IMG/VR virus record: IMGVR_UViG_3300047557_002611
Span: 1 to 47,514 of that record
Strand: one strand, 5' to 3'
DNA from: a virus
Length of the DNA stretch: 47,514 nucleotides
Part shown: positions 2,851 to 47,252 of the stretch, piece by piece
Layout: every line of letters begins with the position of its first letter
Position numbering within the stretch: the first letter of the stretch is position 1
Position numbers and translations under genes: made by a program
The notes under the pieces: model-generated
Told to the model about the DNA's origin: nothing
What the model saw: only the letters and a program-made list of their open reading frames with translations
The model's database searches: none

Positions 2851-5379
2851 ATGAAAACTTACAATGAATTTATTTCTTCTAAAGTAGTCCAGGCGCACAA
2901 GTCTGGATTTTCGGTCAACCCTGACCAGCTCCATCCTTCTTTGTATCCACATCAGCGGGACACGGTTCTTTGGGCCTTAGACGGTGGATGCCGTGCAATC
3001 TTTTCATCTTTTGGACTGGGTAAAACACGGGTCAACATAGAAATATGTCGGCAGGTCCTTCTGCATGAAGGTGGTTTGGCTCTGATCATTGCCCCGCTTG
3101 GAGTTCGCCAGGAATTCACCCGTAAAGATGGACCTGAAATGGGGGTGGATATTCAATACTGCCGCAACATGGAAGAAGTTGCAGGTGCAATGACTCCGTT
3201 CATCATCACCAACTACGAACGAGTACGAGACGGCCACATTGACCCATCTCAATTTAAGGTAGTTTGCCTTGATGAAGCATCAATCTTGCGCTCCACAGGC
3301 TCCCTAACCTTTGACACATTTATGAACGTTTTCCAGGGTGTGAAATATCGGTTTGTTTTCACGGCAACCCCAAGCCCCAACCGATACATTGAACTGATCA
3401 ACTATGCCCATTTCCTTGGAGTGATGGACCGGGGCCAGGCTCTTACTCGTTTTTTCAAACGTGACTCCCAAAAAGCAGGTAACCTTAAAATTCACCCCCA
3501 CAAGGAACGTGAATTTTGGTATTGGGTTTGCTCTTGGGCTTTGATGCTTTACAAACCAAGCGATCTTGGATATAGTGATCAAGGATATGAATTACCTGAA
3601 ATGAAGGTGATCTTCCACGAAATCCCAACCGACCACACAAAAGCATGGGGTAAAACCGACCAAAACGGGCAAGCCTTCTTGCTTCAACATGAGGCTATGG
3701 GCCTTGTAGCTGGAGCACAAGAAAAACGAGAAAGTCAGGTTGAACGGATTGCCAAAGCCAAGGAGATTGTTTCGCAAGATGATACCTCTCACTGGTTGAT
3801 CTGGCACCATCTGGAATCAGAACGCGCAGGCCTGGAAAAAGCAATTCCAGAAAGCACTTCCGTTTATGGTTCTCTTGATCTTGAAACCCGTGAAGATCGG
3901 GTGATTGGATTTTCCAATGGAGAAATAAGAATCTTGAACACAAAACCCGAGCTGTCAGGATCAGGATGCAATTTCCAGCGCCATTGCCACAAAAACATCT
4001 TCCTTGGGATCAACTACGATTTCAATGATTTCATCCAGGCAATACACCGGACGCACCGCTTTTTGCAAAAAGAATCGGTTGAGGTCCATATCATCTACAC
4101 TGAAACTGAACGGGCAATCCTCAGTGAATTGAAAGCAAAGTGGAAACGCCACGAAGAGATGCAGGCCAACATGCGCGAAATCGTATCTGAGCACGGTTTG
4201 AGCCAACTTAGTATGGTCAAGGCCCTGCAAAGGTCTTCTACTGTGCAGCGCCAGGAAATGAACGGTAAAAGCTGGAAGTTCATCAACAACGATTGTGTGC
4301 AGGAATGTCAAACCCGTGAAGACAATTCTATTGATCTGATTGTGACTTCGATCCCCTTTTCCAATCATTACGAATACACCCCCAGCTACCTGGACTTTGG
4401 TCACACCGATAACGACGCGCATTTCTTTGCCCAAATGGACTACCTGATACCGGAATTGTTACGGATCACCAAGCCGGGACGGGTCGCTTGCGTCCATGTC
4501 AAAGATCGGATTTTCTATGGCTCCCAAACAGGTACTGGATTCTCCACGGTAAACCCATTCCATGCCAAAACAATGTTTGCATTCATGCAGCACGGCTGGG
4601 AATACATGGGCATGGCCATCATTCCTACAGATGTGGTGGCAGAGAATAACCAAACTTACCGCTTAACCTATGGTGAAATGGTCAAGGATGGAACCAAGAT
4701 GGGTTTTGGGTCACCCGAGTTCCTTTTGTGTTTCCGTAAACCGCAGTCTGATAAATCCAAGGCTTATGCAGATACTCCAGTGACCCACAGTAAAGATGAA
4801 TACGGGTTAGGCCGTTGGCAGGTTGACGCTGACGCAATTTGGAGATCATCCGGTAACCGACTACTGGACATTGACGAACTAGTAAGATGTGCCGGGGCTG
4901 AAAACGGATTGAAAGTAATCAAAAATAAGCTTCACGACTACTTCAATAAATCCGGTTACGACTACAAAACCCACATCGAGGTTGCCGAACGACTGAACGA
5001 AAAAGGAAAACTACCTAAAACATTCTCCCTGCTAACTCCACCAATGACCGATGAGGCAAAGGAATGGATTTGGGATGATGTAATCCGTATGCGTACCCTG
5101 AACCTGAACCAAGCCAACCGGAAAAAAGAGCAACATGTTTGCCCGCTCCAGTTGGATGTTGTGGAGCGTTGCATTGAAAGATTCTCCAACAAAGGTGAGG
5201 TGGTTTTTGATCCGTTCGGAGGTATTGGAACCGTACCATACAAAGCTGTTGAGATGGGCCGATATGGCCTGGGAACCGAATTGAATAGTGAATACTACAA
5301 AGATGCTTTGCATTACCTGAAGAGCATTGAGTTGAAGATAAGCGCACCAACGCTGTTTGATTTGATGGGGGCAGCCTAG
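2851..5379 (+). CDS. SF2 helicase-DNA methyltransferase fusion
   Basis: An 842-aa two-part protein. The first ~450 residues are an SF2/SNF2-like helicase: Walker A with GLGKT at 55-59, DEAS box at about 141-144, TATPSP motif near 170, and motif V/VI-like elements (SGSGCNFQ, QAIHRTHR) near 370-400. The second half is an amino-methyltransferase: the catalytic motif IV is TSIPF at about 499-503, and motif I is DPFGGIGT at about 787-794. Motif IV preceding motif I gives the beta-type circular order. The second motif IV residue is Ile instead of the usual Pro (TSPPY). Role inferred: phage DNA modification coupled to ATP-driven translocation, possibly protection from host restriction. It has its own promoter module upstream. 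Confidence 0.8.
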   Translation: MKTYNEFISSKVVQAHKSGFSVNPDQLHPSLYPHQRDTVLWALDGGCRAIFSSFGLGKTRVNIEICRQVLLHEGGLALIIAPLGVRQEFTRKDGPEMGVDIQYCRNMEEVAGAMTPFIITNYERVRDGHIDPSQFKVVCLDEASILRSTGSLTFDTFMNVFQGVKYRFVFTATPSPNRYIELINYAHFLGVMDRGQALTRFFKRDSQKAGNLKIHPHKEREFWYWVCSWALMLYKPSDLGYSDQGYELPEMKVIFHEIPTDHTKAWGKTDQNGQAFLLQHEAMGLVAGAQEKRESQVERIAKAKEIVSQDDTSHWLIWHHLESERAGLEKAIPESTSVYGSLDLETREDRVIGFSNGEIRILNTKPELSGSGCNFQRHCHKNIFLGINYDFNDFIQAIHRTHRFLQKESVEVHIIYTETERAILSELKAKWKRHEEMQANMREIVSEHGLSQLSMVKALQRSSTVQRQEMNGKSWKFINNDCVQECQTREDNSIDLIVTSIPFSNHYEYTPSYLDFGHTDNDAHFFAQMDYLIPELLRITKPGRVACVHVKDRIFYGSQTGTGFSTVNPFHAKTMFAFMQHGWEYMGMAIIPTDVVAENNQTYRLTYGEMVKDGTKMGFGSPEFLLCFRKPQSDKSKAYADTPVTHSKDEYGLGRWQVDADAIWRSSGNRLLDIDELVRCAGAENGLKVIKNKLHDYFNKSGYDYKTHIEVAERLNEKGKLPKTFSLLTPPMTDEAKEWIWDDVIRMRTLNLNQANRKKEQHVCPLQLDVVERCIERFSNKGEVVFDPFGGIGTVPYKAVEMGRYGLGTELNSEYYKDALHYLKSIELKISAPTLFDLMGAA

Positions 5380-11342: not shown

Positions 11343-11373
11343 CCGGGTGTCCTTTGGGGCATCCGGTTTTTTT
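11343..11373 (+). terminator. Rho-independent terminator
   Basis: A 10-bp stem CCGGGTGTCC / GGGCATCCGG (two G-U pairs) with a TTTG loop is followed by seven Ts (11367-11373). It closes the early transcription unit that ends with the VRR-NUC and 59-aa genes, so the next gene must have its own promoter. Confidence 0.85.
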
Positions 11374-11474: not shown

Positions 11475-12500
11475 ATGGACATTTCAAAAAGCTTCAAAGG
11501 GTTGTTCCAAAAACCCAAATTCGACCCATCTGGCATGGATCGGAAGTTTGACAGTGTAATTACATCCCTGATCTTTGGGGCATCTTTGGCGGTGGCGGTC
11601 ATTAGTGGGGGCGGGGTATTCTATGCAAGCATGAAGACTTGCGCCGACACTGGACTTTCTTTCACTATGTCGGTTGTTCTGTCCTCAATCGTTGCCACGG
11701 CCATGTATTTTTTGACTGACAAGGGATTGAAGTTCCTTGTCACTAAATTCACCTTTGATCTTTTCCAGCTTTTCAGTGGCAGATTTTGGATGGACCTTTG
11801 GGCAATGGTCAGAAAGGACAATCCTAAATATAACCTTCAGGCTAGGATTGCCCAGGGCATTATCTTTGTTGGTATCGGAGCAACTATAGTAGCAGTATTA
11901 TTTGCTGACTACAAATCAATACAGATTGTACAAGACCCGGTGGCTGATTTGGTGCCAAAAGATTCAACCATTGACATAATTTCCCAGCGTCAGGCCATCA
12001 TCAACCAAAACAATCCGAAGTTTACCCGATTGCAAAACACAATCGCTTCACTGGAGGATGAAATCAAGGCAACTGAAAAAAGTGTTGAGCGTAAAAACCC
12101 AAAGCTCGATGGAATGGAAGGTGGTAAGCCAAACGGATGGGAAAAGAAAGAACTATCCAGGTTGAAGGCTTCTGCAACTTCATCCCTTCGCAAGAGATTG
12201 GACGAAACGAGGACTAGTTTAATGGAGGCAGAAAAGAACCAAGAAGGGTTGCTGGCTGTAATGGACACAAGCAGCGTAAAGAAAAACATCCTGATTGAAA
12301 ACAAGAACATCAGGGCTGCTTCAAGGGTTGCTGCTTTTATTATGGTCCTTGGATTTTGGGCAAAGGTAGCCTTGGTATTCTTCTATGCTCTACGGGTCTT
12401 TAACTGGTTTGCCCTTGGAGCTAAAGACACCAATGGGGACGGGAAGATTGATACTAAGGATGTTGAAGATTTCCACAAACCGGGTTTTCAGGCGGGGTAA
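11475..12500 (+). CDS. Four-helix membrane protein with coiled coil and EF-hand loop
   Basis: A 341-aa zero-frame product. Predicted membrane helices lie at about 30-52, 63-80, 126-146 and 283-315. Between helices 3 and 4 is a polar, helical, coiled-coil-like region (about 165-270). After helix 4 comes a canonical 12-residue EF-hand-type loop DTNGDGKIDTKD (318-329). The 3' end has a -1 frameshift signal (12482-12525), so a second, 408-aa form is expected. No family recognised. It is the first gene of a two-gene unit bounded by terminators on both sides, typical of a cargo (moron) cassette; a role in superinfection exclusion or membrane sensing is a guess. The start has the AGCCATAGTATG context. 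Confidence 0.75.
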   Translation: MDISKSFKGLFQKPKFDPSGMDRKFDSVITSLIFGASLAVAVISGGGVFYASMKTCADTGLSFTMSVVLSSIVATAMYFLTDKGLKFLVTKFTFDLFQLFSGRFWMDLWAMVRKDNPKYNLQARIAQGIIFVGIGATIVAVLFADYKSIQIVQDPVADLVPKDSTIDIISQRQAIINQNNPKFTRLQNTIASLEDEIKATEKSVERKNPKLDGMEGGKPNGWEKKELSRLKASATSSLRKRLDETRTSLMEAEKNQEGLLAVMDTSSVKKNILIENKNIRAASRVAAFIMVLGFWAKVALVFFYALRVFNWFALGAKDTNGDGKIDTKDVEDFHKPGFQAG

Positions 12501-12525
12501 CAGATAGGGCTAAATCTGTTACCCC
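12482..12525 (+). promoter_or_regulatory. Programmed -1 ribosomal frameshift signal
   Basis: The heptamer G GGT TTT (12482-12488) is in the correct zero-frame phase: codons GGT and TTT start at 12483 and 12486. A 5-nt spacer (CAGGC) leads to a perfect 12-bp hairpin, GGGGTAACAGAT (12494-12505) with ATCTGTTACCCC (12514-12525) and an 8-nt loop. The zero-frame TAA (12498-12500) lies within the stem. Slip site, spacer and stem meet the classical -1 requirements. Confidence 0.75.
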
Positions 12526-12700
12526 TGAACAGGAACAAACCGAAATTGAAAACGCAATTGAACGAGATTTAAACCTAGCAGAAATACAGGCAGTTATTGA
12601 CGCACTCGAAAGCTGTTTGCTTGTATTTGATGATGAACAGAGGGGAAAAACATTAAAAGTTATCGACGCTTTAGAGTCGCTTAAACCTATTGCAGTATGA
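12488..12700 (+). CDS. -1 frameshift extension of the membrane protein (70 aa)
   Basis: The -1 frame stays open for 70 codons from the slip site to TGA at 12698-12700 and has no ATG, GTG or TTG before codon 44, so it is not a normal independent gene. It encodes an acidic helical segment with two related stretches, VIDALESCL and VIDALESLK. Its stop overlaps the ATG of the next gene (ATGA at 12697), the coupling arrangement of a real coding end. Read through the frameshift it gives a 408-aa protein. A sequencing indel is the alternative, but the intact heptamer, spacer and hairpin argue for programming. Confidence 0.7.
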   Translation, partial: SGGVTDRAKSVTPEQEQTEIENAIERDLNLAEIQAVIDALESCLLVFDDEQRGKTLKVIDALESLKPIAV

Positions 12701-13386
12701 TGAATAAATCAGAAATTGAATTTCATATCAAGCGCCTACAAAATGGCAGAGCCGCAACTTCTGATCCACACCAAATTGAATTGATTGATTTGGGGTTGAA
12801 GAAATACCGGGAGATGTTATTGGAGCTTGAAAAAAAAAGAGAATCGCAACCAACCGGAAAAACGGGGCAGTTGCCGCAAAATACACAAACAAGTGCGCAG
12901 CCAAACCCAAAAATAGAAAAAAGGGAGATCGAAAAGCAGACTGTAAAGTGCCCAAATGATGAGCCAGGGGAAACTTTGTTTGCAAATACCTGCACTGAAA
13001 AAACGACGCTTGGCCGTCTGCCTGTTGCTACGAATAGCATAGAGGATGCAACTACCTTAGAGATCCCAATGGTAAACGGAACTATCCTGACGGCCACCTA
13101 CGGGATCGCCAAGGCCAGGGCAAGACAGTACTTTGACTCCATAATGACCACGGAAGACTTCCGGGAAAAACGATACGCTGCCGTTCTGAAATCAGCCATG
13201 TTTAAAAACCTCGTTCGATTGGTAAGAGGGTGGGGGGTATTGAAATCATTGGATGTCAAAAATCCAGAGTATCCAACCTTGGATAAAATATTCAAAATCC
13301 AACGGCAAACCCGTGAAGACCGGATAGTTTCTGCAAAGCTACTCCTGGAAATGGTCATGGAGACAATCAATAAAGCAGAAGAATAG
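12697..13386 (+). CDS. Hypothetical partner protein of the membrane cassette
   Basis: 229 aa, not recognised. The N-terminal ~50 residues form a helical hairpin or coiled coil. A Gln/Pro/Lys-rich flexible linker follows (about 50-85), then a C-terminal domain (about 115-229) with PMVNGTILTATYGIAKARARQYFDSIM and a basic helical region (VLKSAMFKNLVRLVRGW). No membrane helix. ATG 12697 overlaps the stop of the frameshift extension, so only ribosomes that shift (or reinitiate) would be delivered directly to it; this links its expression to frameshifting. A second ATG at 12700 is possible. A terminator follows. Confidence 0.65.
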   Translation: MMNKSEIEFHIKRLQNGRAATSDPHQIELIDLGLKKYREMLLELEKKRESQPTGKTGQLPQNTQTSAQPNPKIEKREIEKQTVKCPNDEPGETLFANTCTEKTTLGRLPVATNSIEDATTLEIPMVNGTILTATYGIAKARARQYFDSIMTTEDFREKRYAAVLKSAMFKNLVRLVRGWGVLKSLDVKNPEYPTLDKIFKIQRQTREDRIVSAKLLLEMVMETINKAEE

Positions 13387-13417
13387 AGTATATCAGTAAG
13401 TTTTTTCATCATGTAGA

Positions 13418-13447
13418 GGGAGTGGTAAAAGTACCATTCCCTTTTTT
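13418..13447 (+). terminator. Rho-independent terminator
   Basis: The stem GGGAGTGGTA / TACCATTCCC (10 bp, one G-U) with loop AAAG is followed by six Ts. It closes the membrane-protein cassette. Confidence 0.85.
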
Positions 13448-13579: not shown

Positions 13580-13614
13580 TTTGACAACGGATGTAACAAT
13601 CTCTTTTTTTTTAT

Positions 13615-13656
13615 TTTGAACTATGCATTTTATTCATTATTTTGTATCAAATGCAT
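13615..13656 (+). promoter_or_regulatory. Promoter with operator module before recombination operon
   Basis: TTTG at 13615-13618, 18 bp, TTATTTTG at 13637-13644 (7 of 8 to TAnnTTTG). The promoter is embedded in the module ATGCATTTTATTC, 8 bp, GTATCAAATGCAT (13623-13656). Outer halves ATGCATTT and AAATGCAT are perfect inverted repeats. It serves the operon starting at 13676. Confidence 0.75.
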
Positions 13657-13675: not shown

Positions 13676-14053
13676 ATGACAGCAACTACTCAACTCATTC
13701 AATCCAATCCAGTCGAATTCCTTTCTTTCGACATTATAGAAATCAACAACGAGCCTTTCGTGGGCATTGACTTCAAAAAAACAGGTGATCAACTTTACCT
13801 GGAGATTCGGGCAATTGATGTCCTTGATCTTTTGAGGGCAGCAGGCAAATACACCTACGAGTCATTTGCAACCGACCTAGACGGCAACCACTTTGTTTAC
13901 GAAATCCAATTCCAGGGTGATCAGGATTTTGAAGTGAAGGTCAAAATAGAAGACCGGATCAATTCACTTCGTAAAAAAGATTTTGAGGCAGTCATTTTGG
14001 CTGCCTACAATGATCAGGATTACCGGAACCTCATTTGTGAAATACCTTTCTAA
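13676..14053 (+). CDS. Hypothetical protein, first gene of recombination operon
   Basis: A 125-aa acidic protein, not recognised. Mixed alpha/beta composition: FLSFDIIEINNEPFVGIDF at the start, a YEIQFQGDQDFEVKVKIEDR strand region, and helix at the end. It directly precedes the Bet annealing protein and is the first gene after the tandem operator region. A role in recombination is suggested by context only. Confidence 0.6.
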   Translation: MTATTQLIQSNPVEFLSFDIIEINNEPFVGIDFKKTGDQLYLEIRAIDVLDLLRAAGKYTYESFATDLDGNHFVYEIQFQGDQDFEVKVKIEDRINSLRKKDFEAVILAAYNDQDYRNLICEIPF

Positions 14054-14065
14054 AACCATAATCTC

Positions 14066-14857
14066 ATGTCTCAAGAAATCGCAATCCGCACCGTCACCGA
14101 AGAAGATATGAAAACCTTGGAGCAGGCTGGCATCATCCCCAAGAATACGCCTGTTTCACAGCTCAAGGTTTTCGCCAAATTCTGCCAAGAAATTGGACTT
14201 TCCCCATTCACCGGGGAAGTTCACTTGGTTGGATACAAAAACCAAAAAACAGGGGAGATGAAATACTCTCGTATCGTGGGGATCGATGGGTTCCGAAGAA
14301 AGGCGGGTGAAACAGGTGAACTGGCAGGCACTGAACCGCCACGGTACAATGTAACATCGGATGGAAGTTACCAAACGGCTTCCGACCTGTTGATCAAAAA
14401 AGAACTTCCGGTTACTTGTACAATGACAGTTTGGAGGTTCAGGAATGGGCAAAGGGTTCCATTCTCAGCCGAAGTGGTTTTCAACGAGTTCGCAAAACGG
14501 TACAACGGGGTATTGGCAGAGAAATGGAAGGACATGCCCTTTCAGATGATCGCCAAAGTCAGTGAAGCCTTCGCCCTCCGTAAAGGTTTTCCTGACCGTG
14601 TGGCAGGTCTATCTATTCCAGAAGAGGCAGCAGCATACGAAGGAACCAATGAAGGCCCTATTGCAGAGGATCAGGATGCTCGTAAAACCGCAATTGAGCA
14701 GATCACCTCTGATCTTACCCACGTAAAAGACATTAAGGAATTACAGGCAGTATGGACAAAATACCGCCCTTGGCAAAAGGACGAAGAGATTATTGAGTTG
14801 GTCAAAGCAAAGGGCCGTGAATTAGAAGAGATTCAAGTTGAAACCGAAGCCGTATGA
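14066..14857 (+). CDS. bet: Bet/RecT-type single-strand annealing protein
   Basis: A 263-aa Bet-family recombinase. Diagnostic stretches are FAKFCQEIGLSPFTGEVHLVGY (about 33-54), KYSRIVGIDGFRRKAGETGELAGTEPP (about 65-92), CTMTVWRFRNGQRVPFSAEVVFNEFA (about 118-143) and the KDMPFQMIAKVSEAFALRKGFP block (about 155-176). It should anneal complementary single strands made by the neighbouring exonuclease, promoting phage recombination and concatemer formation. The 3' end overlaps the exonuclease gene by 4 bp. The start is preceded by AAAACCATAATCTC. Confidence 0.9.
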   Translation: MSQEIAIRTVTEEDMKTLEQAGIIPKNTPVSQLKVFAKFCQEIGLSPFTGEVHLVGYKNQKTGEMKYSRIVGIDGFRRKAGETGELAGTEPPRYNVTSDGSYQTASDLLIKKELPVTCTMTVWRFRNGQRVPFSAEVVFNEFAKRYNGVLAEKWKDMPFQMIAKVSEAFALRKGFPDRVAGLSIPEEAAAYEGTNEGPIAEDQDARKTAIEQITSDLTHVKDIKELQAVWTKYRPWQKDEEIIELVKAKGRELEEIQVETEAV

Positions 14858-17928: not shown

Positions 17929-18306
17929 ATGGCATACGATAAAGATGTGATTCTTGACAAGGCAATAAGCAATATCAATGAGCATAAACTGACCACCATT
18001 GAAGAGGTCGTTGCATTTCTTCCTATTTCTATGTCTACTTTTTACGAATGGGAATTGGAAAAATCGGAAGGCATAAAAGAAGCACTATATCGATCTCGGG
18101 TTTTATCAAAGAATAAGCTTAAAAAGAAGTGGGTCGATTCCGAAAATCCAACCCTCCAACTAGCATGGTTTAAACTACACGCCAATCCAGAAGAGCTGGC
18201 TGCCCTCAGCATGAACAAGGTCGAACACTCCGGTGAAGTCACCACAACGGTGATCTTCCAAGAGGTAGAAGTCAAGTCAAAACACGAAGATGACAGCGAC
18301 GATTAA
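17929..18306 (+). CDS. terS: Terminase small subunit-like protein
   Basis: A 125-aa protein immediately upstream of the large terminase. ATG 17929 is used because an upstream TTG start would lie inside the promoter. The N-terminal part carries a helix-turn-helix-like segment (TTIEEVVAFLPISMSTFYEWELEKSEGIKEAL) suited to recognising the packaging site; a basic RVLSKNKLKKKW and an acidic tail follow. Length and position fit TerS. It overlaps terL by 17 bp. Confidence 0.75.
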   Translation: MAYDKDVILDKAISNINEHKLTTIEEVVAFLPISMSTFYEWELEKSEGIKEALYRSRVLSKNKLKKKWVDSENPTLQLAWFKLHANPEELAALSMNKVEHSGEVTTTVIFQEVEVKSKHEDDSDD

Positions 18307-19630
18307 CCAAATACAATTATCCACAAAGCAGATCGAGGCTTTGCAGTACCTACGTAACCAGCACACGGTGGAGGTTCTGTTTGGTGGAGGGGCCGGGGGT
18401 GCAAAGTCCCGACTTGGAGCGTATTGGTTAATGAAAAACTGTATTGAATATCCTGGCAGTCGTTGGCTTATGGGCCGGGCTGTCAAAAAAACCCTAAAGG
18501 AAACTACCGTTAAAACCTTTTGGGAGTGTGTTTCAGAATACAAACTCAGAGGATCATTCAAGTTTCGGGAAAACTCCGACCAGATCACCCATTTGAACGG
18601 CTCTGAAATCATGCTCAAAGACCTGGACCTGTACCCGTCCGATCCTGAATTTGATGAGCTGGGGTCTTTGGAAATTACCGGAGCATTCATCGACGAGGTA
18701 AACCAGGTCACTAAAAAGGCTAAAAACATTGTCCGGTCCCGTATTCGTTACAAACTGGACCAAAACAACCTGATACCCAAAATACTAATGGCTTGCAACC
18801 CGGCCAAAAATTGGGTTTACCATGACTTTTACCTGCCCTGGAAGGAAAATAGGCTTGATTCCGATAAGAAGTTCGTCCAAGCCCTGGCAATCCACAATCC
18901 TTTCATCTCAAAGCACTACATTTCAAACCTCCGACAGCTCGACAACCATTCCCGGGAACGCCTGCTACATGGTAACTGGGAATATGACGATGACCCCGAT
19001 GCTCTTTTATCCTACGATGAGATAAAGGACATGTTCACCAACTCACATGTAACGCCACGACCAAACAAATACCTGACTGTTGACACCGCCTTGATGGGCT
19101 CCGACAGGTTCATCATTAAAGCCTGGCATGATTGGATTGTCATTGATCACAAGGTCATCTCAAAGTCCAATGGTAAAGACGTGGAGAATACTTGCCGGGA
19201 ATTCAAGAAAAAGCACAACATCCCCAATCGGCACATGATTTACGATGCCGATGGGGTAGGAGGGTTCTTGGGCGGGTACTTCCCCGGGGCCGTTGCCTTC
19301 AACGGTGGAGGTAAAACTTTCGATGATCCAGAAAACCCCAAAGGGTACGAGGATTTGAAAACCCAATGCGGGTACAAGTTCGCAGCCAACAAAAATAAAG
19401 TCTGGTTGAAGTCCATCGCGGATGATGACACGGCAAAGGAAATGCTGACGCAAGAATTGGAACAGCTTAAACGACGAGACAGTGACCAGGACGGAAAACT
19501 CAAGATGAAACGAAAGAAAGACATCAAGGCGGACATTGGCCGCTCTCCTGACTTTCTTGACAACTGTATTATGAGGGCATGGTTTGACCTGCCTAAAAAA
19601 CCGGGACTTAGAGTCCTCAATACAAACTGA
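18290..19630 (+). CDS. terL: Terminase large subunit
   Basis: A 446-aa packaging motor. The ATPase has Walker A GGGAGGAKS (32-40) and Walker B GAFIDEVNQV with D135-E136; a coupling-motif-like ILMACNPAKN is near 165-174. The RNase H-like nuclease has its acidic residues in YLTVDTA (D265), YDADG (D319) and the C-terminal SPDFLDN (about 422-428). Together with the portal it pumps phage DNA into proheads and cuts it. Length is typical for the family. Confidence 0.93.
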   Translation: MTATINQIQLSTKQIEALQYLRNQHTVEVLFGGGAGGAKSRLGAYWLMKNCIEYPGSRWLMGRAVKKTLKETTVKTFWECVSEYKLRGSFKFRENSDQITHLNGSEIMLKDLDLYPSDPEFDELGSLEITGAFIDEVNQVTKKAKNIVRSRIRYKLDQNNLIPKILMACNPAKNWVYHDFYLPWKENRLDSDKKFVQALAIHNPFISKHYISNLRQLDNHSRERLLHGNWEYDDDPDALLSYDEIKDMFTNSHVTPRPNKYLTVDTALMGSDRFIIKAWHDWIVIDHKVISKSNGKDVENTCREFKKKHNIPNRHMIYDADGVGGFLGGYFPGAVAFNGGGKTFDDPENPKGYEDLKTQCGYKFAANKNKVWLKSIADDDTAKEMLTQELEQLKRRDSDQDGKLKMKRKKDIKADIGRSPDFLDNCIMRAWFDLPKKPGLRVLNTN

Positions 19631-23615: not shown

Positions 23616-23627
23616 TAAATATTGAAC

Positions 23628-25358
23628 ATGAGTTTGGTTTTCCGTATCACCGATGAGTCAGCAAATGTTTACACGGTCACACCTGTGAACAGTGACATCA
23701 TTTTTACGGATACCAAAGAGAATGACCAAGTATTTTTTCGGCGCAAGATCAACGACTTGATTTTTATTGCCGAAGATTACAATACCCTAAAAGAATTTTT
23801 GGATTTAAACGACTGTGAGAACTACGAATTGAGCATCCTGCACCAATCAACTGAAAGGTGGTTAGGGGTGCTCAATCTCAGAAAGGGAGACTGGCAAGAC
23901 CGGATTTGCAGATTGGAGATTCCAGTTGAACCAAAAGACCCGGCTTCACGGGTTTTGTCAATGTGGGAATTGAAAGCTAATGTTTTTTCAGCGGCTTCAA
24001 CTATTACTGCTTACCCTTTCATCGGGGAAATTGAGTGCGAGGAGTGCGTTGATACAGCCGTAGCCTCACCTCCAGACTTCCCATTGTCGTCACCTCCAAC
24101 CGCTCAGTGCGATACACCTCTATTGACCGCGCAAGGCTGGACAATCACCCGAAATGAGGTGAACGGGGTAGTTCAAGTCTCCACATCACCCCCACTCTAT
24201 GAAGCACAGTTGAATGTAATAACTCGTTACTGCCGGGAGTTTGTAGCGGGGAGCCTTCCCCCGGGATCGGGTTGGGTAGCGGTAACAGGTGGTTATGCTC
24301 GAACAGTTGTCACGGTTCTTGACAATAACAAATCAGACTTTGATCCAGAAGATGGAAAATTATTACAGTATTACAACGTCGTTGGCCTTGACACCGAAAC
24401 AGGCGACCAGCAGCCCGTAGATAATGGTGTGTTGGTCGCTGACTTGCTCAACTATTTTGTGTTGGAGGCTGGGCTGACACAGGTTGTTTCAGACTTCCTG
24501 AACATCAACCCTGACATGACGGCCCCAACGAACAGCTCATACACTGCCGCAAATCCAAATATACACTACCTGGCTATTTTTCAGAACTCCGACGTGAAAC
24601 GACCCGGGGCTTATGAGAACGCAAGCCGTGGCGAAGTGTCTTTTAAGGAGTTGTTGGAAATGCTGCGTGAAGTATTCCAAATCTATTGGCGTGTAGAGGG
24701 TGATAACTTACGCCTGGAGCACATCAGCTACTTTGAGGCAAACAATGGGCTTGACCTTACTACTGATGCCCCCGTGCAGATCAACAACCTCAACAACTTC
24801 ACCTGGAAGGAAAACAAGTTGGCAGCCGTTGAGAAATTCCGCTGGGCCTATGACACTCAAATAAGGGATTTCGCAGGACTTCCAATCACTTATGACGACG
24901 GTTGTGCCGATTCTGAATTATCACCAGTCGACCACAACCCTGGACAGTTTTACACAGACATCCAGACGATGCAGCGGATGCCCGAATTGGTCGGAGATCA
25001 GGGGTTCACTTTGGCAAATCTGGCCTACTATTCCGGTAGGTACTACTTCATTCAGGAAACAGGGGTTTTGAGTAGTACCCGGTGGGTGAATGGTCACCTT
25101 TCCTGGGCCAATCTGCATTCAAACTACTGGAAATTTGGCCGTCCGTTCGCATCTGGCCAAATGAACGGATCAACGACAGCTTTCTTCTCAATTCAAAAAC
25201 TGAAGCAGCAAGAGCCGCTTAAAGTTCCGTTGTCTAATTCCGACTACTTCGACACGATACCTGAAGACAACATCCAATCTGAATTAGGTTGGGGCGCACC
25301 GGATAAGCTGGAGTATTCTACTAGAAAATGTTTGTTAACTGTAACATTGACACACTAA
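23628..25358 (+). CDS. Large virion (tail/baseplate-region) protein
   Basis: A 576-aa protein without membrane segments or signal peptide, not recognised to family. Mostly beta-strand composition, with a Pro/Cys-rich segment near residues 145-165 and an acidic, aromatic C-terminal half. Size, position among structural genes and the C-terminal IEHISYFEANNG-like strands are compatible with a tail hub or adaptor-type protein. It is separated from the MuF region by its own operator module, and its stop overlaps the next start (TAATG). Confidence 0.55.
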   Translation: MSLVFRITDESANVYTVTPVNSDIIFTDTKENDQVFFRRKINDLIFIAEDYNTLKEFLDLNDCENYELSILHQSTERWLGVLNLRKGDWQDRICRLEIPVEPKDPASRVLSMWELKANVFSAASTITAYPFIGEIECEECVDTAVASPPDFPLSSPPTAQCDTPLLTAQGWTITRNEVNGVVQVSTSPPLYEAQLNVITRYCREFVAGSLPPGSGWVAVTGGYARTVVTVLDNNKSDFDPEDGKLLQYYNVVGLDTETGDQQPVDNGVLVADLLNYFVLEAGLTQVVSDFLNINPDMTAPTNSSYTAANPNIHYLAIFQNSDVKRPGAYENASRGEVSFKELLEMLREVFQIYWRVEGDNLRLEHISYFEANNGLDLTTDAPVQINNLNNFTWKENKLAAVEKFRWAYDTQIRDFAGLPITYDDGCADSELSPVDHNPGQFYTDIQTMQRMPELVGDQGFTLANLAYYSGRYYFIQETGVLSSTRWVNGHLSWANLHSNYWKFGRPFASGQMNGSTTAFFSIQKLKQQEPLKVPLSNSDYFDTIPEDNIQSELGWGAPDKLEYSTRKCLLTVTLTH

Positions 25359-36793: not shown

Positions 36794-37870
36794 ATGGCAG
36801 AGTGCTTGGAAAACCTAGTAGGGCTGACAGATATTGATTGCGAGTGTTTTTCTGACTTGCAACCTGAAGGATGGGACACATCCGAATCGGGGCGGTATCT
36901 GACTGATCCCGAAGTAGGTTTTCCAACACTTGAAGCCGTGTTTCAATCAGTTGATTGTGGGAATGAGTTTTGGGCCATGATGACCAAGGCGCGAACGGAT
37001 GCCATTCGGGAATTCCGTCACGAGCTGGGGATTATGATGAAAAAGTACAACAACCCACGGGTTCCAGCTTTTCGGGGCTTGATCGGTGAAGTAAAGTACC
37101 GTTCAAGATTCACGACCAACAACACGTATTTGGGGGTTCTTTTCAAGTTCCCATGGTGGCGCGACGCTGAACTGAAGATTACCAGGATTGGCCTGAACAT
37201 TTCGGTTGCTGCAACGGTGGAGGTTCATTTCATTTCCAATGATCCTGATAACTTCCCGGCAAAGACTGTGGAGATTGAAACCGTGGCCAATCAAACCACA
37301 TTCGTGGATATTCCAGAAGAAGATTCCCCCTACATCCTGCCCTTTCACTCTGAAAACAGAGACGATCTGATTTACGCGGTCTATTACACCTTACCTGAAG
37401 GTGCCAGGGCGAACGAGAATAAGATCACCTGCGGGTGCAAGGGTGATGATCCAATCCGGCGCGGGACTTTCCTGACAGGAGGATTCACCTCTGACACACT
37501 TGACGAACTGGAAGACATCACACCGGGCCACAGTGCAAACGGGCTTTCGGTTGGGTGTTACCTGGATTGCGACTACACCAACTTTCTGTGTAACCTGGCT
37601 GAACTATCCGGTCAAGACCTTTTGGATGATGCAGCGGCGGCCATACAGGCCAAAGGAGCCGCCAAACTCATTTCAATGGTTCTTGATACAGGCAGGATCA
37701 ACAGGTACACACTCAAACCGATTGAGGAGCTGTACGGACGTCGCACACGGTTACAAAACAACTTTGTTGAGTATGTAACCGCGATTTCAAAAAACTACCG
37801 ACCTGAATTATCAGGCTGCTGGAAATGCAAATCCAGCGATACCTGGCAACGTCGGGCAATAAAAGCTTGA
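36794..37870 (+). CDS. Cysteine-rich neck/connector-region protein, 358 aa
   Basis: Not recognised. Cysteines cluster near the N-terminus (DIDCECFSD), in the middle (ITCGCKGDD) and at the C-terminus (SGCWKCKSSDTW), suggesting metal binding or disulfides. A jelly-roll-like beta region occupies about 95-200. It lies between capsid and tail tube and so is a candidate neck, fibre-base or host-adhesion protein. Starts 2 bp after the previous stop. Confidence 0.5.
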   Translation: MAECLENLVGLTDIDCECFSDLQPEGWDTSESGRYLTDPEVGFPTLEAVFQSVDCGNEFWAMMTKARTDAIREFRHELGIMMKKYNNPRVPAFRGLIGEVKYRSRFTTNNTYLGVLFKFPWWRDAELKITRIGLNISVAATVEVHFISNDPDNFPAKTVEIETVANQTTFVDIPEEDSPYILPFHSENRDDLIYAVYYTLPEGARANENKITCGCKGDDPIRRGTFLTGGFTSDTLDELEDITPGHSANGLSVGCYLDCDYTNFLCNLAELSGQDLLDDAAAAIQAKGAAKLISMVLDTGRINRYTLKPIEELYGRRTRLQNNFVEYVTAISKNYRPELSGCWKCKSSDTWQRRAIKA

Positions 37871-38466: not shown

Positions 38467-38467
38467 T

Positions 38468-38502
38468 ATGCATTTTATTCAATCTCTTGCAATCAAATGC
38501 AT
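38468..38502 (+). promoter_or_regulatory. Operator module abutting tail fibre start
   Basis: ATGCATTTTATTC, 9 bp, CAATCAAATGCAT: perfect outer halves ATGCATTT / AAATGCAT (19 bp apart). The right half ends right at the ATG (38503). No good TAnnTTTG is present in the middle, so the promoter is weak or differs. Confidence 0.65.
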
Positions 38503-41500
38503 ATGAAAAAGCTACTACTAGCACTGATCGTTTTTTGTAATGGGATTATCCTCAATGCGCAGTCCACTGATCCGGCGGGCTGCGTATTTGAGGGCTCATT
38601 GTATTCGGATAGCTCAGAGGTAGTCATTGGACTACCTTTTGTTTTGTGGATTCGTGACAATGGCACGGGCTGCCAATTGGCCGTACAGTACGCCACTCAG
38701 ACCGGGAACCCATTTCCAGTAAAGCCATCGACTATCATTCGACTTCTTGATGACTACAATGACATCATTGATCAGGCCGGAGCTGGAGTAGTAGAATTCA
38801 CTCAAAACAGTGTGAATTTTGCGGTGAACAGGGATTGGGTCGAAGCGGTATACGAGGGAAGTTCTGGCGGGGCTATTATCGTAATCCGCGACGGTCGTAC
38901 CCGGTTTTTGACAGATGAATCATACGCCATCATCAGGGCCCGGTTTATTGTGTGCCCTCCAACAGGCCCCCCCTCCTACCTGATCGATGCAGAAAATGGT
39001 TTGTATGTAGCCAATGATACGACCGTGCGCATGGGGGGCTTTTTGATTGAAAATACACGGGTGCAGCTCGAAGGCTACCCGCTAACTTTTATTGATACGA
39101 CGGCCAAGCAAAGTTTTGGCGTTGGTGCTGGTACTTTGCCGGGTTATTTAGGGGACACGGTAGGATATTTCGCCAGGCGTTCAGGTGGATTTAGGCAGTT
39201 TATTTTACAGGGAAATAGATACAATCAAATTGTAATCCGGGACACTTCAAGCGTTTTTGGGGATTACGCTGAAATTTACCAGGGGCTTTATTTTGGGGAC
39301 AAACCATTCATGTATTTTGATGTGACCGACAGAGAATTTGATGGTAAGATTTCGAGAATTTCAATTGACGCTGACAGCGTATCGTTTAGGAATAGCCCTT
39401 ATTTATCGTCGATCGATGCTTACATAAGGTATTTCACTGCCAAGGCTGGGCGTATTTCCATGGGCGCAATTGAGGGTGAATTAGGGATAACAGGCACCGG
39501 GGTCGAAATGGGCGCTTATGGGTATGGCGTTGGAGGTGGCGCAAGTGAGTACCTGTTTATGAAAACCAAGGCTGTTGATAATGGTACCGCCAGCGTTGGG
39601 CAATACCTCAAACTTTTAAATACTAGTACGGGTGAAGTAGAATTTGCAACAATCGACCTTTCAGGATACCTTCAAACTTCTGACACCGCCGCAATGCTTG
39701 ACCCATACATCCAAGGCGCTGGATCGGTGAACAGCTTGGCAAAATTCACGGCTGGGCGGGTAATTGGAAATGCTGCAATAACGGAAAACGGGAGTCGGGT
39801 GGTGATGGGGCTGCCGATGCAGTTGAAGGAATATTCTTTAGTGGGCCTGCCAACCGGGGTAACAAAGGACATGTACTGGATTACGGGTGAGGGGCCTGCT
39901 TGGTATCAGGGGGCGAGGTTGGCGTATGGGCTGGAAAGTACGTTTAACCGGGGGACAAGCACACGGATTCCTTTTTTTGATGCGAATGGACAACTTACAC
40001 AGAGTATAAATCATGCGTATAATGTTTCAAATGGTGCATTTTCAGTAGGTACACCGATACTAGCAAACATCGGATCAAGTTTTTTATCTGAGTTACCCAT
40101 TACTGCGGCTTTTTATGGTACGGTTAATAATGGAGTAAGGTCTAGTTTTACTATTTCTACAGCGGGGTGGGGAAGACCCGGTGCGACGACAATTTCCGTT
40201 AATGGATCACAGATACACGGATATGACGGATTCCTTCACTTTATAAATAATGGTTTTGCTGGAGGAAGTGTTTCAGGTAGCGGATTTTTCACTTCGAAAA
40301 ACTATATACTAGGATATACACCGGGCCCATCAAACACTTCGAATCTATTTATAAATTCTACGAACATAAATGAGTACACGCAAGGTGCGAATTACCCGTC
40401 AGGATCGAATTATTACAATATAGAAGCATCTCTTCAATCAGTCATAGCAGCAAACAATACAGGCCAAACAGCAGTTCGAGCAGGACTACAAGTATCTGGC
40501 AGGTATCTAAATTTTAAAAACGATCAAGGGGTTGTAATTGGTTCGACTAATGCAACGACATCAGTGCCAAACTCTTCTGCGGCATTAGACATAAACTATT
40601 CAACAAGAGGACTTTTACCCCCACGTGGTAGTGCGACAAGTAATATTACAAGAGGAATTGGTTCGCTGACAATTGTGAGTGGTGGGAGTGGATACGGAAC
40701 TGGAACTGGAGTAGTAATTACTATATCAGGGGGAGGGGGTAATGGTGCAGCTATCTCGTTAACATATACAGCAGGAGTGATTACAGGCGCTACTTTAATT
40801 TTACGAGGTACTTCATATACTTCTGCTCCTACAATAACTATATCCGGTGGAACTGGAACTGGTGCGGTGATTACGTGTGCTTTAGACCCATATCCCGATG
40901 GTCTTATGTATTACAATACAACTACTAAAACACATCAATACTACCAAACTACAAATAACCGATTTCAAGATTTTGGAAGTTATCAATCAGATAACTTACA
41001 TGTTGTTGATTCTTTTAGACTGCAAAACACTCCATCGTTAAGCAGTATCACAGGACTACTCACACGCGATGCAAACGGGTGGGTCGGGCTCGCTAGTGTT
41101 GGAACGGGGTTAAGTTATGCAGCGGGGGTATTGTCCGTAACGGGGGGCACCGGGGGTGGAGGCAGTTCGATCCTTGATAGCTTGGGCAACGGTTCAATCA
41201 CAATCGACGCAAACACCCATGATCTTTTGTTCGACGATTTGGGCACATTCAGGGTCACCCAAACGGGGGGCAATGAAATCAAAGTCAATAGCACTGAGGT
41301 ATCAATTTTGGGTAAGGTGAAGGCAAAACAGGAAGGTTATTACACCATAACCAGTACGTCAAGCCCGCAAACCCTAAGCAACGATTATTCAGACAATCTC
41401 ATAAACCAGGGGGGCACCCAAGCAAGTTTTACATTCCAATTCCCTGCAAGCCCAGCAGACGGGCAAATCCTTACGCTTACCTACAACAATGCAATTAGCA

Positions 41501-46307: not shown

Positions 46308-46346
46308 CTAAAATATTTTTGGTGAAAAACTTGTTTTTAAGTTGCA

Positions 46347-46375
46347 ATATGCGTTTTTTTACATGAAACGCATAT
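46347..46375. promoter_or_regulatory. Short-spaced operator between repressor and early gene
   Basis: ATATGCGTTT (46347-46356) and AAACGCATAT (46366-46375) are perfect inverted repeats with a 9-bp spacer. The half-site ATGCGTTT is that of the long modules (for example 33724), but the halves are one helical turn closer. It sits between divergent genes at 46307 and 46410. Confidence 0.75.
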
Positions 46376-46409
46376 TTCATCGCGTTCAACATAATTAAAA
46401 TTTTAGTAA

Positions 46410-47211: not shown

Positions 47212-47252
47212 ATGCATTTTATTCGTTTTAATGAATAATGTGTATATATTTG
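47212..47252 (+). promoter_or_regulatory. Promoter-operator of the replication operon
   Basis: ATGCATTTTATTC (47212-47224), 8 bp, GAATAATGTGTAT (47233-47245): 10 of 13 arm matches. TATATTTG at 47245-47252 is an exact TAnnTTTG box at the right edge. In the circular genome this is the promoter of the initiator gene at 47389/40, with a leader of roughly 130 nt. Confidence 0.75.

Follow-up and report, generated by a model that had tools for sequence, protein, structure and literature searches.

The membrane-protein gene at positions 11475 to 12500 (plus strand) of the phage genome analyzed here ends in a sequence that raises the question of whether all ribosomes stop at its stop codon or some of them continue in the -1 frame. 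The window, by which we mean the whole stretch of DNA under analysis, is a 47,514-base virus record classed as linear (IMGVR_UViG_3300047557_002611), with genes for a serine integrase, RecT, terminase, and portal. Its terminase is nearest to those of Flavobacterium phage 11b, Cellulophaga phage phi10:1, and Bacteroides phages, which makes a Bacteroidota host likely. The gene is located in the early/recombination region beside recT, which lies approximately 1.6 kb downstream; the terminase gene lies approximately 6 kb downstream. The evidence, which comes from sequence, makes it very probable that an accessory membrane-protein gene of a temperate phage is here subject to programmed -1 ribosomal frameshifting.

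The zero-frame product has 341 amino acids and four hydrophobic helices, the third and fourth of which are separated by a coiled-coil loop. An AlphaFold2 model of the protein was of too low quality for use (mean pLDDT, 47), and only the coiled coil (residues ~178 to 260) was predicted with confidence. The 3' end of the gene reads CCG GGT TTT CAG GCG GGG TAA, with the stop codon at 12498 to 12500. Within this region, a slippery heptamer, G_GGU_UUU, is present in the zero-frame phase (12482 to 12488, plus strand) and is followed by a 5-nt spacer, CAGGC (12489 to 12493), and a hairpin at 12494 to 12525 with 12 perfect pairs and an 8-nt loop. The arms of the stem are formed by 12494 to 12505 and 12514 to 12525, and the TAA lies inside the 5' arm. 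These are the elements that an earlier note on this DNA had reported, and each of them was found where it had been placed. With mammalian ribosomes, G_GGU_UUU has been measured as one of the heptamers most prone to shifting, a ranking that may not hold for the ribosomes of Bacteroidota, and the usual spacer between a slip site and its stimulatory structure is 5 to 9 nt (PMC5009743). The window presents an in-phase heptamer, a structure at 5 nt, and an open coding -1 frame, as looked for in -1 frameshifting. A 72-nt segment folds with -22.5 kcal/mol (z = -5.1), and none of 200 shuffled sequences folded as well. The hairpin is also the longest perfect one in the 47.5-kb window, and perfect hairpins of at least 12 bp were absent from 20 first-order Markov sequences. 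The larger genes of the window contain 35 in-phase heptamers of the strict type; the one at 12482 is followed by the strongest structure and lies near a stop codon. No Rfam family fits the signal region, and no pseudoknot is evident at the signal. Two further candidate sites were rejected: at 2775 a stop codon ends the -1 frame no more than 16 codons downstream, and at 37789 the frame upstream of 37825 opens only at 37807, beyond the slip site. Elsewhere in the window, very stable RNA structures are predicted at 38545 to 38600 (in or near the gene starting at 38497) and at 24397 to 24445 (in the gene at 23622); at -25 and -24 kcal/mol per 45 nt, respectively, they exceed the frameshift hairpin.

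The -1 frame is open from 12467 to a TGA at 12698 to 12700, so a ribosome that shifts at the heptamer would add 70 residues after Phe338 (tail, 12485 to 12700, plus strand) and produce a protein of 408 rather than 341 amino acids. The codon-usage score of the tail, 0.163 per codon, matches that of real genes (0.161 ± 0.072) as opposed to off-frame sequence (-0.336 ± 0.177), and the two alternative forward frames of this stretch lack such gene-like usage. With 15 D/E against 7 K/R residues, the tail is acidic; AlphaFold2 modeled it on its own as three helices (mean pLDDT, 78), and a structure search with this predicted domain returned no significant match. The description in the earlier note of an acidic helical tail in a 70-codon frame with no early start codon is thus borne out, the first ATG, GTG, or TTG after the slip site being a TTG near codon 45, and so is its reading of the junction, where the TGA overlaps the ATG at 12697 of the next gene (ATGATGA). 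The same note had placed an EF-hand-like loop directly before the tail. A weak Pfam score (E = 0.094) can be obtained for this loop in the window protein, but the loop is lacking in the relative described below, and this detail is probably incidental.

One relative of the locus was found, on contig IMGVR_UViG_3300020044_010107 (47,596 bases; here referred to as L002), which shares with the window the portal, at 96%, and most of the structural region. Both flanks of the cassette align well between the two DNAs, but the cassette itself does not. L002 encodes a membrane protein of 270 amino acids with four hydrophobic helices, whose similarity to the window protein is weak and local (26%; E = 8e-4 in a single comparison), and a next gene of 247 amino acids that is a homologue of the window next gene (24%; E = 2e-9). 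Between them lies a -1-frame tail of 69 codons that ends in ATGA, so the junction with the homologous next gene is kept as well; its codon-usage score, 0.102 per codon, is within the range of real genes. The slip site, T_CCT_TTT at 1919 to 1925, is read TCT CCT TTT TAA, and a spacer of equal length, 5 nt (1926 to 1930), separates it from a hairpin at 1931 to 1959. This hairpin is the most stable 45-nt structure within the 21.8 kb of the contig that was examined; it is ordinary for its local GC content (z = -0.39) and strong in absolute terms. Heptamer, stem, and open -1 frame, which the earlier note had named as features to check in homologues, are therefore all retained in diverged sequence at the sole homologous locus found, and here, too, membrane protein and tail are not joined in a single uninterrupted frame. 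It is of note that L002 has an in-phase A_AAA_AAA followed by G at 1886 to 1892, 33 nt upstream of T_CCT_TTT, which enters the same -1 tail and could serve instead. In addition, the annealing protein at 14066 to 14857 is RecT in the window and ERF-like in L002, a module swap amid ~90% identical DNA, and the terminases (18290 to 19630 in the window) share only ~36% over the C-terminal part in equally similar surroundings.

When the two signals are aligned, they have in common TTTT, five bases, and GGGGT, and the remainder differs. All 10 of the 10 shared hairpin pairs are kept between the phages (5 unchanged, 3 with changes on one side, and 2 compensated on both sides), whereas slid controls keep 50 to 64% of pairs. 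The two-sequence covariation beats column shuffles only weakly, being reached by 136 of 500 shuffles. The tails have no significant local similarity, and their global alignment is better than that of shuffled sequences (P ~0.005); they seem too diverged for homology to be proven. The comparison draws on two metagenome assemblies, those of the window and one independent relative. The signal, the open coding -1 frame, the junction, and their conservation in this diverged relative can be read directly from the two sequences, and since the arrangement persists in a relative despite extensive sequence divergence, the signal gives the impression of being under selection and not a product of chance. 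A blind ranking of slip-like candidates with a long -1 extension, covering 4,992 open reading frames (ORFs) in 82 loci, placed the L002 site 2nd and the window site 9th of 385, each at the top of its own record. Furthermore, among 409 membrane-like ORFs from control loci and phages, compared by eye from a table, only those of the window and L002 have a strong hairpin together with a plausible -1 tail and a junction at an ATG.

This conserved arrangement bears on two explanations that invoke an altered template. An indel introduced by sequencing or assembly, or a recently broken gene, would mean that the true protein lies in one frame, and both sequences are indeed metagenome assemblies with short T runs in their slip sites. 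However, two phages whose proteins are ~25% identical would need a frame change in the same direction at the same place, and each change would have to adjoin a slip site and an unusually strong hairpin; the arrangement in L002 thus argues against such an error, which we regard as very unlikely. Alternatively, RNA polymerase might slip on a homopolymeric run and produce a subset of mRNAs in which the tail is in frame. The A7 at 1886 to 1892 in the overlap of L002 and the T5 at its slip site would suit this mechanism, but the window site offers only GGG and TTTT, which are short for a polymerase, and an RNA hairpin at 5 nt is better suited to ribosomal slippage. Transcriptional slippage is accordingly given almost no weight here.

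Hairpins near stop codons can stabilize upstream mRNA. The hairpin of the window, located at a stop codon, might therefore be an mRNA-processing or decay barrier between two genes, with the -1 overlap being incidental. It is embedded, however, in a stretch whose -1 frame is coding in both phages, lacks a T run, and stands at the spacing expected of a frameshift stimulator, and we consider a barrier function of this kind to be extremely improbable. A more serious alternative is that the tail is a separate small gene, translationally coupled by re-initiation in the -1 frame after the stop codon, and that the hairpin only tunes this re-initiation. Coupled gene pairs are commonly taken for frameshifts (PMC3711429), and a -1-frame GTG lies six bases beyond the stop codon of the membrane-protein gene in L002. 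For the window copy this explanation fails because there is no early start codon before that near codon 45, and no tail ORF of at least 50 amino acids is listed. Moreover, coupling needs neither a slip heptamer nor a 5-nt spacing, yet both phages carry them. Re-initiation would explain L002 only, whereas frameshifting explains both phages; a separate coupled gene is in our judgment unlikely.

Under programmed frameshifting, most ribosomes would stop at the TAA at 12498 to 12500 and release the four-helix protein of 341 amino acids. The hairpin five bases downstream of the heptamer would stall a ribosome with Gly-tRNA on GGU and Phe-tRNA on UUU, and both tRNAs could then slip back by one base, from GGU to GGG and from UUU to UUU. 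A fraction of ribosomes would thereby read 70 more codons, and the resulting isoform would carry the acidic helical domain, most likely cytoplasmic, past its last membrane helix. Shifted ribosomes would end at the TGA that overlaps the next ATG and could start the next gene by termination-reinitiation; because they terminate on its ATG, we propose that the output of this gene is tied to the frameshift rate. From the features described above we infer the slippage itself and its rate, the active isoform, its topology, the coupling, and the role of the products.

With regard to this role, the cassette is a two-gene unit between terminators that is strongly diverged inside well-conserved flanks. 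Upstream, an intrinsic terminator at 11343 to 11373 (plus strand) consists of a 10-pair stem followed by T7, and a similar stem with a T run is found at approximately 985 to 1019 in L002. The next gene (12697 to 13386, plus strand) encodes 229 amino acids and has its remote homologue after the tail in L002; downstream of it, a terminator-like hairpin, GGGAGTGGTAAAAGTACCATTCCC, followed by T6 (13415 to 13445, plus strand), contains a 30-mer that is identical in the L002 contig. L002 has an extra cassette gene before this shared terminator, at 2861 to 3460, that by eye resembles T5orf172/GIY-YIG-like proteins. By its sequence organization, the two-gene unit may be a phage accessory ("moron") cassette. 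The membrane proteins of the window and L002 have no Pfam match, PADLOC profiles match neither these proteins nor the tails, and the L002 next gene gave only weak PADLOC matches (best E, 0.0023) and no known anti-phage or superinfection-exclusion component. None of the known families fits the cassette proteins. That the cassette acts at the cell envelope, perhaps in superinfection exclusion, is a guess based on membrane topology and on its swappable layout between terminators. We tentatively propose, at somewhat less than even odds, a swappable accessory cassette in which frameshifting sets the ratio of short to tailed membrane protein and, via the ATGA, the output of the partner, in which selection keeps the decoding signal while protein, tail, and hairpin sequences diverge, and which could act at the envelope of the lysogen. 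Outside the cassette, an ~40-base element at 13580 to 13640, just upstream of the gene at 13676, is repeated at 38467 to 38508 and 47212 to 47251 with ~85% identity, one copy being inverted; it is present in L002 as well and is possibly a promoter or regulatory repeat. A perfect 11-bp inverted repeat, AATATGCGTTTTTTTACATGAAACGCATATT, at 46346 to 46376 is apparently intergenic and possibly an operator.

Searches for further relatives gave none with tblastn in phages (queried with the membrane protein, next gene, and portal) or in plasmids (queried with the membrane protein only), and scans of viral contigs found the cassette in the L002 contig only. In genome contigs, alignment of the portal yielded no loci, and alignment of the terminase yielded 80 loci, mostly from Bacteroidota, all without the cassette. 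Profiles of the membrane proteins and portal found nothing in 395 sampled Bacteroidota genomes, which is weak evidence of absence. A weak tblastn match at two loci (L074 and L078) was rejected, as it sits opposite a real gene. Two short viral contigs (L003 and L008) have portals 27% identical to that of the window, a hint of a wider uncharacterized phage group.

If frameshifting occurs here as proposed, the use of decoding to control isoform ratios would extend to temperate-phage genes that are probably expressed at the host envelope, and the locus would offer a small cassette with which -1 frameshifting in Bacteroidota could be measured. It would also be a warning that annotation truncates genes of this kind and overlooks their tails.

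The mechanism would be standard -1 frameshifting, and it is the gene that appears unusual. The phage cases reviewed mostly extend virion or tail-assembly proteins (PMC5009743). As in the lambda-type G/GT system, a -1 slip late in the gene would yield a minor isoform with an extended C terminus; however, G and GT are two small, soluble tail chaperones whose genes directly precede the tape measure gene, whereas the product of 11475 to 12500 is a four-helix membrane protein encoded near recT. A -1 slip is also known from T7 gene 10 and from Lactobacillus phage A2, in their case extending virion proteins; T7 gene 10 has a G_GU-type P-site slip as in the window (PMC5009743), but its stimulator lies far downstream, in contrast to the window hairpin at 5 nt. 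The L002 signal, with UCCUUUU, a 5-nt spacer, and an 11-pair stem, has its counterpart in NS1' of Japanese-encephalitis-group flaviviruses, where this heptamer, a 5-nt spacer, and an 11-bp stem 1 are listed for Murray Valley encephalitis, Usutu, and West Nile-Kunjin viruses (PMC3835772); those are animal RNA viruses with a pseudoknot, none being evident here, and the likeness is one of convergent use only. DUF4407 (PF14362) membrane proteins of Bacteroidota share the topology of three helices, a long coiled coil, a fourth helix, and a C-terminal tail, but this family was rejected on sequence (no Pfam match and an hhalign probability of 2.6% against two DUF4407 proteins). Similar to the tail proposed here, the hydrophilic end of alphavirus 6K/TF (TransFrame) results from a -1 slip late in a small membrane protein (PMC5009743); the proteins and hosts are unrelated, and TF replaces a hydrophobic end, whereas the phage tail would be added past the last membrane helix.
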